Shown here one piece after another: positions 12,969 to 19,798 of a stretch of DNA of 64,000 nucleotides. How positions within the stretch are numbered: the stretch's first letter is position 1; every line of letters begins with the position of its first letter. The position numbers and the translations under genes are program-made. Under the pieces are notes generated by a model. That model searched no databases, had not been told where the DNA came from, and saw only the letters and a program-made list of their open reading frames with translations. The DNA is from Paracoccaceae bacterium (GTDB lineage Bacteria > Pseudomonadota > Alphaproteobacteria > Rhodobacterales > Rhodobacteraceae), in the NCBI GenBank assembly GCA_026709265.1, contig JAPOTI010000027.1:1-64000 (forward strand), written 5' to 3'.

Positions 12969-14600
12969 TCATAAGTTGTGATTCCGGGTTGAATTGACTG
13001 GGCACGTTGGAGTCGCACGCCGAGTCGTTTGAACATTTGGGCCTGCCATGCTGTGGGTCGTGTCACCATGGGGAAGGGTTGGGTGTATTAGGGTCTGGAA
13101 GTTCGTCTTAATAATACCAGATTCTGAGTCACCATATTGATCCCGGCCCAACCCCCGCACATGCGGCTCATCATGCAGTTGCTGGCGTAAATCATCCAGC
13201 CAGACCCGATCCCAACCCAGAGCTTCTGCGACCGCATAATCCCACAATTGGCGCACTTCGCATTCCCCGTCTCGGTATTGAGGCACTACCATGTCAAAGG
13301 TATGTTCCCAACAGGTGGCAAGCTTAGTGATCGTGGACTCATCATCTAAGTCAGGCACACGTATATCTTCGTAGGCGCCAGGATTGTATTTTGGAAAGCT
13401 AAGCTTTTTTCCAGAATTCCCTAGCAACTGAATGCGTCCAGCAGTTGAGTTAAGAAACACAGCTAGTGCCTTAGCCTGTTTAGCACCTAATCCTGGAACT
13501 GGGTGCCATCCACCACTTCCAAGATAACTCGCTTCGTTAGCTACTGCGCTTAAGCGAGCAGTACTCGTATCTTGCCCTGCAGTAACCAACAGGTATCCGG
13601 CATGACGCAGCAACTTTTGTGTCGCCGTATTCTCAACTTCACCATATGCCCCGGCATCTCGTGCATCTTTTGTCGAAATCAAATATCTGTCCGGCCGTGC
13701 GCAGATAGTTTTCTGCGCGTCCTCGCTCTTGGAATACAATACAGGGAAACTGTCAGGTGTGTCAGCAGTCGATTTCCTCAATGGGCGCATTTGTGCTCCC
13801 CCACCAAGCACGGCCGAAGGAATGATCGCCTGCGACTTGATTGAACGCAAACGTTCATTATGGGCAATTTCGTAAGCTGCTTCTGCCAAAACCGGTGACC
13901 GAAACACCGCCGCCGACCAATCCCCTTGCGCAATCCGCTCCTCTGGCCACTCAGACACTTCACCCCAACCGTCCGAAAGTAAACCGGAATTGGTCGTATT
14001 CTGAAGAACCTGATGGAGCGTAGCAGCCTCACCCTCATCCAAAGGCATACGATCCAAATTGATAATTCGCGTTGGCGGTTTGTTTCCCTTGCAGCGGCGC
14101 AGAATAATCATGCTTTCGTTGATTGCGGTATGCTGACTGAGGTTAACCTGTCCCGGTTGATGGGAAGTCAGCAATGTATGGACGTGAAAGCGCTTGGCAA
14201 GAATTTTGCGTTTTTCCTTCTGTGATGCACCCGTTAACGAAATCGTAGGGCCAATCATCGCGCAAACGCCATCCTCTAGATCTACGCACTTATCCGCAAG
14301 TCCTTCAAATAGACCACCAATGGAATTCTTTCCTACAAAATCCTTTAAGTCAGGGTCCGCTGCCACCAGCCTTTGTTCCAGTTCATCGACTTGCTTGCGT
14401 AGTGCCCTTTGGTCGTCCTTATGGAACTTCTCGCCCATCTTCGAGCGATTGGTAAAGGGCGGATTCATCACAACAATCCGTACATTGCAGGCCGCGCTGA
14501 CCGCATCCTCTAATAAGGGATCATCGTCAGTCAGCTGCAATTGGGTGTTCTTCAACTGCTCATCCCCAAAGTCGAACCGTCCCGAAGGTCCTGATGGCAC
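12969..14600 (-). pseudogene. 3' part of split type ISP-like restriction-modification enzyme (methyltransferase motif IV and specificity domain)
   Basis: A 543-codon frame read from a GTG at 14600, but most likely the downstream half of the gene that starts at 18108. It carries N6-adenine methyltransferase motif IV (IVVMNPPFTNRSKMG, near residue 45), which must work with motif I located in the upstream frame. The rest resembles the target-recognition and C-terminal region of single-chain type I-like enzymes. Its open frame continues backwards through the G tract, with codons for VKAGSLELLSQPSIV immediately after it. With one G fewer in the tract the two frames join into about 1712 codons. As it stands it has no obvious independent ribosome-binding site, so it is probably silent in this phase. 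Confidence 0.8.
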
Positions 14601-17600
14601 GATCGATGGCTGGCTGAGCAGCTCCAGAGAACCCGCCTTGACGCCCCCCCCCCTTCACAGGGCCGTAGGGCATTCTGTGCAGTTGCATTTTTTTGTATGT
14701 CACGCTCTGATTGCCTGCTGTCAACTGTGCAGCAGCAAGCTGCAGTGACACAGGATTCATATCCAGCCCGACCACCACCGATTCCACCGCATGGCGCTGA
14801 AATCTGGCCAATTCCAAATCTGATGCGCCATGGTCTTGCGCTCGACGTTTCATTTCTGTCAACAGGGCAGCAAGTAGTGTACCCGAACCACAGGCGAGAT
14901 CGACACTGCGATGGGCATCCCAGGTCTTGATGTCTGTCCAATCCGCTTTCGATTCCGTCGCATCCAAAGTCAGTCGCGCCAGCAGGGTTGCCGCAGGTGG
15001 GCGGGTAAAGAAGGCACCGTCCGAGGCCTGATTACCCATCACCTTATTGAACAATGCACCCGCATGATCCGTTCCAAGATCTGCGTAATGTTCTGCAATG
15101 CGCTCAGCTTCTCCGGCCAGATGACGCAGAGCACGGTTGAGACCCGCCCGGCGGCCCGCATCGCGGACCACCTCAATAACTTCGATCGCCGGTTCAATAA
15201 CAGGCAAAAAGTCATGACGGGTTATACGGTTCCATTGACTATGGAATTTATCGACCGCCTCCGGGGCATTTTTGATCGAGTCCATCCCATCAATACCCGG
15301 CAACCAGCCACCTGCGGCAATGCGCTGATGAAGCATCGCTGCATTCATCAATATCAACGCGGCAATCGTGCAGCCGTCTGCTTGAATCTTGCTCGCAGCA
15401 CCGGATTTATGATCAAGCTTATCGACACCAAAATGCCTGTCCAGCAAAGCGTTCAGCTCGTCGCCAACAAGGCAGCGCTTGGCTTCTCTGATACTGTCTT
15501 CAAGGATATTGGCATCCCGCTCTGCGCGGTTGCGGGCCAGCCCGGATTTGCGCAGCAGATTGGCGGAAATCTCGATATTGTCCACATCATCCAGCAAGGA
15601 ACGCTGCCATGCCAGCTTCTCCTCTTCGCGTTTCTTCTTGCGGTTGTTCGGATCAACTTTAAGACCCTCCTTGCCATTGAGCATGTTGCGGGCTTTTTTC
15701 TTGGATTTGTCGGGATTGACCGGACCAGGGGTACCATCGCTCGCGGCCTTGTCCCGAACGATCACACTTTTGCGTAATTCCAAGCTGCCGTCGGCGCGCT
15801 GCTTGCCGCTGACAATGGTTTCGGCAGTGGACCCAGAAGTCGGCAATGACATCGCGCCATCATCGGTCGCACTGGGCAAAATGTCTCGGACAGGGACAAA
15901 CACGTCTGATGTTTTTATCCTCCCTTCAAGCACTTTGGCCGCATCACGCTCGGCCGTTCCCGGTTTGCCGACATGTCCATGATACTGTGTGCGCTTGTCT
16001 TCACCGCCAAAAGCGATCAAAGTTGCTACATCGACTAATGGCGCAGGCGGTAAATACATTTCCATTAAATCAGACAGATTGTCTTCAATACGCGCATCAT
16101 GAGCACGCAGTGCCAACAGAATCTGCCCGAGTTCTTGCCAACCATCCTCTGGTCCTGAGTTTTGTAACCAAGTCTCCGCATCCACGTTGGGCGGGATGAG
16201 AATCGGACAGATGATATAACCGAGTTCCTTATCCTCAGCGCGACGCATCACACGACCTACCGCCTGGATCACATCGACCGGTGATTTGCGGGCCTCCAAA
16301 AAACCCACCGCAGAGAGATTGGGCGCATCAACACCCTCTCCGAAAATACCCACATTGATAATGCCGTGGGGTTTATTGTCCGTCGCGGCCATTAATCGGC
16401 CCTTGGCATTCTCACGCTCCGCGACCTTGTTAGAAGCATCAAGATGTTCGAGTTGGTAAGCAGCAAACTCGGGTTTGTCATCCTGCTCCTCCAGACGCTG
16501 CCGCACCCAATTATGGACCAACTGAGAATTCAATGCCTCCACCATCTCTTTAGACTTCGCGATCATATTCATGAAATTGATCGATGAACGCACCTGAACT
16601 CCGTTCTTACGCAACGCACCTCCCATCACCAGAGATAATACAAGCCCGCGCATAAATTGCGCTGTGGAGAGTTTCTTGCTGTTCGCCGCCAATGCATTTG
16701 CCGTTTTGTACGCGGTCTCGTCTTGTACACCGATAGCAATGATCTTGTAGTCCGTGAGCCAACCGTTCTCGACTGCTTCGGCATAAGATTTGCGTGCCAA
16801 CTCCACGCCAAACACCGACTCATCGGCCATATCCCGGACGATCCAGTCTTCGTTCTGGCGCAACCCTCTCTTGATGTTGTCGCCATAAACACGCGGCGTC
16901 GCAGTTTGGTAAACACGAAATTTGGCTGGAAAACGCTGATCATAATGACAGACGGTAAAGTCCTTGATTTTGTCTTCCAGATTGACCTGACGGCGCAACC
17001 CTGCGGTACGGTGCGCTTCGTCAGCAATAAGAACACTGATCCTGCGTGTTCCGCCCAAAGCATCTGCAATACGGTGAGACGACTGATAGGTACCAAAAAT
17101 CACTCCAATATTGGCATCCTGCGCCATAACACCGTCAATCCATTGGCCAATGACCTCATCGTCAGTAGTGACAGTGCCCTTGACCTCGGTAGCTGACATT
17201 TGACTGAGGTCAGCAGTTGGGTCTGCCTTTAAGTCCCTCTCTCGTTCGACACCTTGATCCGAACAGACAGCGAGAACTTTCATGGGCCGTGTTCGATGCG
17301 CGAGGAACTCGCTACGCAACTGAGCAACCAGTGCGATAGATGGGCAGAGAACAACCGAAACCTGTCCGCTGGGTGTGAGTTCTTCGATGATCCGCAGAGC
17401 AATGCGTGATTTACCCGTTCCACAAGGTAGAATGATCCGCCCACGGGCGCGGCCCTCATGACTTTTGGCCGCGTGTTCCTGCAAGAGGGCAACGCTATTC
17501 ATGACGACCTCATCCTGCATGGCATTTCTGGACTGACCACCTCTGTCGCTACCCAGAAAACTACCTGACGTCATCTGTTCCAATTGCTTGCGAAGGTCGG

Positions 17601-18108
17601 TCTGGATGTAAATCGGTTTGACTGGCTTATCCGGATTCATGGCCTTCTCAGCATTGCTGCCAAGACTGGTCTCTCCATTGGTGACAAGCCAACGTTCTTT
17701 CCAAAGGTCGCGATCAGAAGCGCTGACAAACTTATCGATCTCATGTTTGCTGACATCGGCACCACGCCCATACTCATCCAGTTGGCGTGACTTGCACTGG
17801 ATGGCGACCAGTTCACCATCACTGGCACGACGAGCCACCACATCAATACCAAAGTCAGGGGACTTGCCATAAATTGCCTCACGGTCAGGCCACTCCATCC
17901 ATGGCCACGCGTCACTAAAATCCCACTCAATGATCAGAGTTGTGCACTTCACAGTCAAGCGCTCCAGCCACTTGCCGTCTGTTTGTTGAGGGTTGTTCGT
18001 TTCAATTTCCTGCAGAGCTACCCGAAGGCACTCTCCAATTTGTTGCTCGCTCATCATGTCTTCCCAGTCAGATATACGCTTTGGCGTTTTCCTTGATTCC
18101 TGTTGCAT
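14560..18108 (-). CDS. 5' part of type ISP-like restriction-modification enzyme: nuclease, DEAH helicase, start of methyltransferase
   Basis: An 1182-residue frame. An N-terminal PD-(D/E)xK nuclease-like domain shows D89 in GIDVVA and QCK at 104-106. A superfamily 2 helicase/translocase follows: Walker A PCGTGKS at 228-234, DEAH at 363-366, TATP at 402-405 and motif VI QAVGRVMRR at 615-623. A coupler region leads into an N6-adenine methyltransferase with FFTRPPA (motif X-like) and motif I DLACGSGT at 1070-1077. Residues after about 1155 are out of frame because of a G10 tract, and the frame ends 27 codons later. This order matches the predicted-helicase COG4889 and LlaGI-type single-polypeptide enzymes. 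The start is 15 bases after the atp12 stop. In this phase nuclease and helicase would be made without a complete methyltransferase or specificity domain. Confidence 0.88.
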   Translation of the reverse strand: MQQESRKTPKRISDWEDMMSEQQIGECLRVALQEIETNNPQQTDGKWLERLTVKCTTLIIEWDFSDAWPWMEWPDREAIYGKSPDFGIDVVARRASDGELVAIQCKSRQLDEYGRGADVSKHEIDKFVSASDRDLWKERWLVTNGETSLGSNAEKAMNPDKPVKPIYIQTDLRKQLEQMTSGSFLGSDRGGQSRNAMQDEVVMNSVALLQEHAAKSHEGRARGRIILPCGTGKSRIALRIIEELTPSGQVSVVLCPSIALVAQLRSEFLAHRTRPMKVLAVCSDQGVERERDLKADPTADLSQMSATEVKGTVTTDDEVIGQWIDGVMAQDANIGVIFGTYQSSHRIADALGGTRRISVLIADEAHRTAGLRRQVNLEDKIKDFTVCHYDQRFPAKFRVYQTATPRVYGDNIKRGLRQNEDWIVRDMADESVFGVELARKSYAEAVENGWLTDYKIIAIGVQDETAYKTANALAANSKKLSTAQFMRGLVLSLVMGGALRKNGVQVRSSINFMNMIAKSKEMVEALNSQLVHNWVRQRLEEQDDKPEFAAYQLEHLDASNKVAERENAKGRLMAATDNKPHGIINVGIFGEGVDAPNLSAVGFLEARKSPVDVIQAVGRVMRRAEDKELGYIICPILIPPNVDAETWLQNSGPEDGWQELGQILLALRAHDARIEDNLSDLMEMYLPPAPLVDVATLIAFGGEDKRTQYHGHVGKPGTAERDAAKVLEGRIKTSDVFVPVRDILPSATDDGAMSLPTSGSTAETIVSGKQRADGSLELRKSVIVRDKAASDGTPGPVNPDKSKKKARNMLNGKEGLKVDPNNRKKKREEEKLAWQRSLLDDVDNIEISANLLRKSGLARNRAERDANILEDSIREAKRCLVGDELNALLDRHFGVDKLDHKSGAASKIQADGCTIAALILMNAAMLHQRIAAGGWLPGIDGMDSIKNAPEAVDKFHSQWNRITRHDFLPVIEPAIEVIEVVRDAGRRAGLNRALRHLAGEAERIAEHYADLGTDHAGALFNKVMGNQASDGAFFTRPPAATLLARLTLDATESKADWTDIKTWDAHRSVDLACGSGTLLAALLTEMKRRAQDHGASDLELARFQRHAVESVVVGLDMNPVSLQLAAAQLTAGNQSVTYKKMQLHRMPYGPVKGGGRQGGFSGAAQPAIDRAIRTFGTVRLWG
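14644..14653. repeat. C10 (coding-strand G10) homopolymer, candidate phase-variation tract
   Basis: Ten consecutive C on the plus strand, read as GGGGGGGGGG in the restriction-modification gene. The coding sequence reads AAG GGG GGG GGG CGT in the upstream frame. Removing one G gives AAG GGG GGG GGC GTC and joins the upstream frame to the downstream methyltransferase frame. Homopolymeric G tracts in restriction-modification genes are a known substrate for slipped-strand phase variation; a homopolymer length error in the assembly would look the same. Confidence 0.85.
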
Positions 18109-18123
18109 GGTGAATTGACCCTA

Positions 18124-18846
18124 TCATCGTTGACACCTGACGCGCGATAGCGATTCAAATTCAGCACAGATTTTGAACTCCTCCCAAACGCATTTTGCGG
18201 CTGCGTCTGCCTCGCTGTCTCGACCCCATTGCTGCGCCTGCCACTCCTCATCAAGGTGCGACAGATCCCAGGCCCGCTCCGGGGTCAGGTGATCCGTGAC
18301 CACCGCCAGGCCAAGGAGACATGATCCCGTCAACTGGATCAATTCCTGCAGAGCTGACAGGGTGAAGTCAGAAAATTCTGCGGTCAGGTTGATGAGGTTG
18401 GCCAGACTGTCCGGTGATTGCGCAATCGGCATGACGCCCGTACCAATCGTCATCGGCGCGTTCAATTGGGTGGCCGCCCAATCCAGAATGGGATTCCAAC
18501 TCCGATCCTGGATATCGACAAGTTCTGGCGGCGAGGTGGCACGATGACAAAGCAGTTCATGTGCGGCATAGCGGCTCAGACAGGCAAGGAGTTCAGCACG
18601 TGACGTCGCTATTTCATCGATGGCCCGGAATGCACGGCGGGTGAAGTGCATCTCTTCAAATTGGATGATGTGCGTGCAACTCTCCCATTCCCTGAATAGT
18701 TCCCTGGCGAGTTCACGGGTGGGGACCGTCAACGGGTTGTTGGCGGGGGTTCGGACTGCGGCATCATCACGACACAATGTCAAACCGTGCGTATTCTTGC
18801 TGAGTGACAGATGGCTCCAGTCCTTGCGCGGTCGCCATTCAGGCAT
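18124..18846 (-). CDS. ATP12 family chaperone for F1-ATPase assembly
   Basis: A 240-residue protein of the ATP12 family, which in mitochondria binds the F1 alpha subunit during assembly; alphaproteobacterial homologues are widespread. Typical features are the early DGAP-like region, NPLTVPTRELA, the ELLCHRA motif near residue 100, the WNPILDWAATQLNAP segment, TGSCLLGLA, and the C-terminal LDEEWQAQQWGRDSEAD. A longer frame opens at 18990, but the ATG at 18846 gives the expected N-terminus (MPEWRPRKDW) and overlaps the rluC stop by 8 bases. The order crcB-rluC-atp12 is common in this class. The restriction-modification gene has been placed directly after it. Confidence 0.88.
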   Translation of the reverse strand: MPEWRPRKDWSHLSLSKNTHGLTLCRDDAAVRTPANNPLTVPTRELARELFREWESCTHIIQFEEMHFTRRAFRAIDEIATSRAELLACLSRYAAHELLCHRATSPPELVDIQDRSWNPILDWAATQLNAPMTIGTGVMPIAQSPDSLANLINLTAEFSDFTLSALQELIQLTGSCLLGLAVVTDHLTPERAWDLSHLDEEWQAQQWGRDSEADAAAKCVWEEFKICAEFESLSRVRCQR

Positions 18847-19798
18847 GACATTCCGCCAAAGTGCCAAAGTCCAGCTGCTTGTCATCCCAACCCAGCAGTT
18901 GAAAACGTCGGCGCATATGGGGTGGTAGAGGTGCGTGGAATCGTCGTGTCTCACCATTGCCGGGATGAGAGAACTCCAGTAACCCGGCATGCAACATCAT
19001 ACGTCTCCCCGAATGCAGCGACCCGTCATGAATGCGCTTGCCATACTGACGATCTCCAACGATGGGATGTCCCATGTCTGCGAGATGGATGCGCAACTGA
19101 TGATTGCGACCGGTCAAAGGTTTGAGAGCCACCAAAGCGAGCTTCTGCCCCAACCCGTCTATGACCTCATAGTTGGTGAACGCCGTCTTGGTCTTGTCGG
19201 TTTCCTGAACCCACATCTCGGATTCGATGCACCCACTTGTGACTTTCGGACAGCCGTGAACAATCGCAAGATAGAGCTTGGTGACGCGCCGCAATCTGAA
19301 ATCTTCCGACAGGGCGCACGCCGCGCGGCGATTCCGTGCCATAACCAGAAGCCCGGAGGTCTCCTTGTCGAGACGATGGATGAGTTTCGGCGTCGAATCT
19401 TTCGTTGCGAAACAGGCGGACGCATAACCTGCCAGATGTCGCCGCTGGCCAGTTCCGCCCTGAACTGCAATGCCAGGCGGTTTATCAAATACGATGATAT
19501 CTGAATCCTGATACAAGATCGTGGATTGAAACCAAGGGGGAATCTTTATGCTCTGTGGGAACCCTTGCGATGGATGATTCCGGGGAGCAAAATCCAGCGA
19601 GACGGGTAACCGCACCGTTTGCCCCTCTTGTAGCCGATCAGAAGGTTTTGCCCGTGCGTCGCCAATCCTGATCATTCCCTTTCGACAGAGTCCCTCGATC
19701 TTGGACTGAGGAAGTCGGCCAAAGCTGCGGCGCAACCAACGGTCGAGTCGCTGCCCCGAATCGTCTGGACCGACCGTGCGGGTTTCGATCTTGTTCAT
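18839..19798 (-). CDS. rluC: ribosomal large subunit pseudouridine synthase RluC/RluD family
   Basis: A 319-residue pseudouridine synthase. An N-terminal S4-like RNA-binding domain (RLDRWLRRSFGRLPQSKIEGLCRKG) precedes the catalytic domain with the HRLDKETSGLLV motif holding the catalytic aspartate, and the C-terminal region has GRNHQLRIHLADMGHPIVGD. RluC modifies 23S rRNA positions in the 955/2504/2580 group. The frame opens at 19915, but the ATG at 19798 overlaps the crcB stop as ATGA, the usual coupled start. RluD specificity is not excluded. Confidence 0.92.
   Translation of the reverse strand: MNKIETRTVGPDDSGQRLDRWLRRSFGRLPQSKIEGLCRKGMIRIGDARAKPSDRLQEGQTVRLPVSLDFAPRNHPSQGFPQSIKIPPWFQSTILYQDSDIIVFDKPPGIAVQGGTGQRRHLAGYASACFATKDSTPKLIHRLDKETSGLLVMARNRRAACALSEDFRLRRVTKLYLAIVHGCPKVTSGCIESEMWVQETDKTKTAFTNYEVIDGLGQKLALVALKPLTGRNHQLRIHLADMGHPIVGDRQYGKRIHDGSLHSGRRMMLHAGLLEFSHPGNGETRRFHAPLPPHMRRRFQLLGWDDKQLDFGTLAECHA

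Follow-up and report, generated by a model that had tools for sequence, protein, structure and literature searches.

Switching has been measured for several modification genes that carry homopolymeric tracts, namely Cj0031 of Campylobacter jejuni (PMC4889913), pglX of Streptomyces (PMC4365076), and JHP1272 of Helicobacter pylori (PMC3936762). Cj0031 is a type IIG enzyme with a G9 tract inside its single chain and conserved domains on both sides of it, and C. jejuni genomes contain 12-29 G/C tracts each (PMC4889913). The pglX gene belongs to the phage growth limitation system and is ON with G8 and OFF with G7 (PMC4365076). In H. pylori, a homopolymeric switch is found in the single-chain type IIG enzyme JHP1272/HP1353-HP1354, while the frame breaks of the type ISP genes HP0667-0669 are stated not to lie in repeats (PMC3936762). 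For LlaBIII, a type ISP enzyme, the ATPase has been reported to be activated only through target recognition by the methyltransferase and target-recognition domain (TRD) (PMC7049714).

We analysed a 64,000-nucleotide stretch of a Paracoccaceae genome (contig JAPOTI010000027.1, positions 1 to 64,000; hereafter the window), in which a gene for a type ISP-like restriction-modification enzyme is divided by a run of ten G. We consider it likely that this run is a slipped-strand phase-variation switch, with the assembled copy in the putative OFF state. The locus resembles Cj0031 in that a single-chain restriction-modification enzyme has an intragenic tract that other homologues lack, and in that both activities are predicted to switch jointly. 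Cj0031 differs in being a type IIG enzyme without an ATP-driven motor, and its switching and methylation have been measured, whereas here both are predicted from sequence. The pglX gene, which encodes a DNA methyltransferase used in defence against phages, likewise has a G-tract, but its system is multi-gene and the PglX chain has neither nuclease nor motor. H. pylori offers parallels in both the single-chain switch of JHP1272/HP1353-HP1354 and the frame breaks of HP0667-0669, although a tract-controlled type ISP gene is not described in that study (PMC3936762). The type ISP enzymes LlaBIII and LlaGI (PDB 4xqk, 5ffj) share the Mrr nuclease, the SF2 ATPase, and an N6-type methyltransferase placed after the motor; in contrast, the methyltransferase and recognition part of the present enzyme has no sequence match to theirs, and no tract has been described in them.

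A tract in a single-chain restriction-modification gene is thus already known. The initial annotation had called this an unusual place for a switch, a view that does not stand beside the same design in Cj0031 (PMC4889913) and the similar ones in JHP1272/HP1353-4 and pglX. Our literature search, which had incomplete coverage, did not return a paper that describes tract control of a type ISP enzyme or of a natural-product pathway, or a poly-G phasome in such bacteria; both the presence of a tract in an enzyme of this type ISP-like class and the set of genes described below appear to be new.

Domain organization and reading frames of the enzyme

The restriction gene starts with an ATG at 18108 on the minus strand. 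It lies 15 bp past the stop codon of an upstream gene (18124-18990) that we take to be ATP12-like, and because only these 15 bp separate stop and start, it may be transcribed from the operon of that gene. The plus strand reads ten C at the tract, which is therefore G10 on the coding strand (Table 1). Our reanalysis agrees with the initial annotation that two open frames meet at the tract and that the codons right past it are intact, with the 3' frame starting VKAGSLELL. The frame relation of the two parts also fits the earlier statement that removal of one G would give about 1712 codons.

Table 1. Features of the restriction gene (window positions) and tract-bearing genes elsewhere in the genome
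Feature	Location	Strand	Tract	Details
G10 homopolymer, proposed slippage switch	14644..14653	minus	G10	Out of frame as assembled (putative OFF)
Gene 5' part, to tract	14653..18108	minus		1152 codons: nuclease, SF2 ATPase, coupler-like region, methyltransferase past motif I
Gene 3' part, other frame	12969..14642	minus		557 codons, stop-free: motif IV (MNPPF) and presumed target-recognition region
Open frame as assembled	14560..18108	minus		Truncated 1182-aa putative OFF product, stop ~30 codons beyond tract
Variable loop bearing the tract	14616..14673	minus		Spans MPYGP to AGSLELL
Mrr_cat_2 restriction endonuclease domain	17602..17922	minus		Residues 63-169, E 2.2e-17
SF2 helicase-like ATPase	16240..17523	minus		ResIII residues 196-406, Helicase_C 550-623
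Walker A GTGKSR	17404-17421	minus		In SF2 ATPase
DEAH	17011-17022	minus		In SF2 ATPase
QAVGRVMR	16243-16266	minus		In SF2 ATPase
Methyltransferase motif I DLACGSGTLL	14872..14901	minus		On 5' side of tract
Methyltransferase motif IV MNPPF	14454..14468	minus		Beyond tract
TOMM cyclodehydratase (L021)	G000:C3:4512-4524		G13	Out of frame
FkbM methyltransferase (L027)			G11	Out of frame
FkbM-like gene (L039)			G9	Out of frame
Peptidoglycan-binding/ankyrin protein (L028)			G9	Signal peptide; out of frame
Calx-beta protein (L037)			G11	Signal peptide; out of frame
GT8 glycosyltransferase (L029)			G12	In frame
FkbM gene (L035)			C11 (coding strand)	In frame

To place the enzyme in a class, we considered the features of type ISP enzymes. 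A Mrr-family nuclease is present at the N-terminus (Mrr_cat_2 and the match to LlaBIII), and an SF2 helicase-like ATPase follows within the same chain, recognized by ResIII (E 3e-15), Helicase_C (1.8e-5), and DEAD in a domain search of the first 680 residues, as well as by its Walker A and DEAH motifs. The same 680 residues match the PADLOC model REase_MTase_IIG at 1.3e-99, and among solved structures the N-terminal ~650 residues (37-687) match only LlaBIII (E 1.8e-54) and LlaGI, which upholds the earlier assignment to a type ISP-like class. An N6-adenine methyltransferase of gamma order is also present (motif I, then NPPF, then the recognition region), with the tract dividing its motifs; the read-through segment across the tract matches N6_Mtase at 1.3e-5, and it is only in the homologues that the methyltransferase forms one unbroken chain with nuclease and motor. 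The 3' part by itself matched no model, and the predicted structure of a relative's methyltransferase-TRD had a pLDDT of 41.8, too low for use. Because a methyltransferase-TRD profile searched against the PDB gave chance hits only and made no sequence connection to LlaGI or LlaBIII, we regard "type ISP-like" as the correct wording for this enzyme. A second nuclease-motor enzyme, distant from the first (~30%), is encoded elsewhere in the genome (L052, G000:C135:1-6000) in a 1310-codon open frame that has no G-run of 7 or longer.

Long G/C runs across the genome

In the window, G/C runs number 215 at length 4, 46 at length 5, and 4 at length 6, and then there is the single run of 10. Across the genome, nine runs are exactly 7 long, none is exactly 8, and 31 are of at least 9, with lengths from 9 to 20 (three of 9, four of 10, twelve of 11, two of 12, six of 13, one of 14, two of 15, and one of 20); the mode of these long runs is 11. 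Extrapolation of the window spectrum predicts ~0.01 runs of at least 10 per window and ~3 of at least 9 per genome, against the 31 found. The tract thus has two features that mark phase-variable genes: its length far exceeds that predicted by the genome's run-length spectrum, and it lies within a gene whose coding sequence is intact on both sides. The gap at 8 and the hump at ~10-13 are the pattern expected of slippage above a threshold length, and this genome-wide spectrum is the strongest evidence for the switch reading. Phase variation had already been proposed as likely from the gene itself; we consider it the likeliest explanation, and the genome-wide set of tracts adds to its backing. 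The three congeners compared are poorer in such tracts, with 2, 7, and 10 of at least 9. We also considered a dinucleotide shuffle of the window as a null, under which the tract is unremarkable (2.7 G8 words expected and 3 found, all in the G10 tract), and rejected it since it overpredicts long G-runs relative to the genome's real spectrum. The tracts are not explained by a loss of mismatch repair, since the genome has complete mutS and mutL genes.

At least eight of the 31 tracts, including that of the restriction gene, were recognized as intragenic, and in six of these eight the assembled length breaks the reading frame; scoring the frames near the tracts by codon usage gave, at 54% GC, too little signal for a classification. 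The genes at the intragenic and upstream tracts are of kinds for which phase variation is a classical finding. One of the split genes encodes a TOMM (thiazole/oxazole peptide) cyclodehydratase, with an N-terminal winged-helix domain before the tract and leader-binding and YcaO domains after it. In two congeners (G001 and G002) this gene encodes the whole protein in one frame without a tract, and in a third (G003) it is a 771-aa open frame (congener loci L102-L104). The contig has another G13 tract at a distance of ~9 kb, 220 bp from the frame of a C39-peptidase ABC transporter (L022). The FkbM gene with the in-frame C11 tract has a later frame break away from any tract.

A repeated element upstream of four paralogues that we read as porin-like, which had no Pfam match (L034, L038, L041, L050), bears tracts of 12, 13, 13, and 15, placed ~80 bp before the open frame, and two copies of this element, although alike at 99.3% over 288 bp, differ in their tracts (G13 and G12). 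Promoter phase variation, of which Neisseria porA is an example, is possible at these genes; a consensus scan found no sigma-70 promoter at the tract. Further repeats with tracts were seen in the congener G003, where a three-copy element (L065, L066, L067) has two G-tracts 169-170 bp apart, of lengths G10/G11, G11/G13, and G9/G9, and at L042 (G000:C97:36280-36489), an inverted repeat with arms 94% alike that bears G15 and G9. A C14 tract also lies 28 bp past the end of an Eco57I-type DNA methyltransferase gene (L046, G000:C104:32856), but its role as a switch is doubtful because it is 3' of the gene.

These observations bear on the possibility that the tenth G is a base-calling or assembly error, in which case the true tract would be G9 and the gene intact and constitutively expressed. 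The genome is a draft of 144 contigs, probably from short reads, homopolymers of 10 are error-prone, and relatives of the enzyme are read in one frame, so a one-base miscall is conceivable. Nonetheless, rare errors would hardly put six of eight intragenic tracts out of frame, a proportion near that of random tract lengths, nor do they account for a separate hump of long tracts at 10-13 with none at 8. We therefore regard an error as unlikely.

Conservation around the tract

Close homologues of the enzyme, with 50-53% identity in the 5' part, were found by genome scans in metagenome-assembled genomes (MAGs) of Entotheonella (L017), Dehalococcoidia (L018), and Acidimicrobiaceae (L019) and in the bacterial MAG IRC4_bin_37 (L020); a fifth, from a genome of the same family (L009 of G032), is split over two contigs. 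In all five, the flanks of the tract site share a single frame, and none of the five has a G-run there, so that even the G9 implied by an assembly error would be unusual, and slippery. Between MPYG and AGSLELL, the homologues have unrelated residues in varying number. From this variation in length and sequence, it would be expected that the loop should tolerate the gain or loss of a few glycines. Relatives of the methyltransferase-TRD part are rare, occurring in 9 of 385 genomes of the class, and none of those relatives has a tract at the site. Because no relative of the enzyme bears the tract, the predicted switch is not conserved, as is also the case among homologues of Cj0031. Searches of viral contigs yielded neither a relative nor a copy of the sequence flanking the tract, and in an empty-site comparison the genes flanking the restriction gene were not adjacent in congeners.

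The tract might also mark a recently dead gene, broken by slippage, fixed in the OFF state, and now drifting. The frame is indeed broken in the assembled copy, authentic frameshifts outside repeats are known from type ISP genes of H. pylori (PMC3936762), and the relative from IRC4_bin_37 has a separate frame break without a repeat, closer to its 3' end. If the 3' part had long been dead, it would be expected to have lost more of the invariant residues, which we defined as those identical in L017, L018, and L019. However, retention is 487 of 606 such residues (80%) on the 5' side of the tract and 148 of 193 (77%) on the 3' side (Fisher p 0.31), a result that accords with the initial annotation's remark that the flanks show no other decay, and a further 557 codons beyond the tract are stop-free. 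Slippage in such a tract is moreover reversible, and the same pattern recurs in other contingency-type genes of the genome. Death of the gene consequently seems quite improbable to us.

Homopolymers can also cause slippage in transcripts, and the full-length and truncated enzymes would be set apart by entire functional parts. Nevertheless, we regard it as very improbable that ribosomal or RNA-polymerase slippage yields a steady mix of the two, with the tract serving expression and not genetic switching, since relatives lack the conserved slippery site usual for programmed shifts and tract length differs between near-identical repeat copies within the genome.

A proposed switch and its biological context

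Phase variation at the tract could work as follows. The gene would encode one large protein that combines a nuclease, an ATP-driven motor, an N6-adenine methyltransferase, and a target-recognition region, and the tract would sit in a length-tolerant methyltransferase loop between motifs I and IV. Slipped-strand mispairing during replication would lengthen or shorten the tract, by a single G or a few. With G9 (or G6 or G12), a full-length enzyme that both methylates and restricts would be made, while with G10 or G11 the chain would end ahead of motif IV and the recognition region. Such a truncated chain would be unable to recognize its site, and since ATPase and nuclease become active in this class of enzymes only on site recognition, both activities would be off together and the cell unharmed. 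Under this model we infer slippage in living cells, an active ON form, an inert OFF product, and a benefit to cells under pressure from phages or a host.

The initial annotation had raised the concern that slippage could leave nuclease and helicase without modification. As the truncated product lacks the recognition parts, and as LlaBIII needs target recognition for activation of its ATPase (PMC7049714), this state is unlikely to matter: the product should be inert, and a cell in the OFF state probably suffers no harm. Turning ON would carry a hazard of its own in the form of an unmodified chromosome, which a type ISP enzyme may tolerate because its cleavage requires two converging enzymes.

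The tract would also be one of a genome-wide poly-G set that switches defence, surface, and natural-product genes. Taken together, the 31 tracts look like a phasome, with random on/off switches as in Campylobacter and Helicobacter, and we favour, with moderate confidence, a poly-G phasome of the Campylobacter style in which the type ISP-like, TOMM, FkbM/GT8, secreted, and porin-like genes switch independently. The gene content of the window points to a probable alphaproteobacterium, and the names of the MAGs that bear homologues suggest that the bacterium is perhaps sponge-associated. Phase-variable restriction is known mainly in host-adapted pathogens, and a motor-driven single-chain enzyme with a tract would allow a clean test among phage defence, gene uptake, and epigenetic regulation. 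The coordinated set of tracts is of more interest than the single gene, as it suggests that this bet-hedging device, which here includes a natural-product pathway, extends beyond the usual pathogens to another lineage, despite the presence of mutS and mutL.
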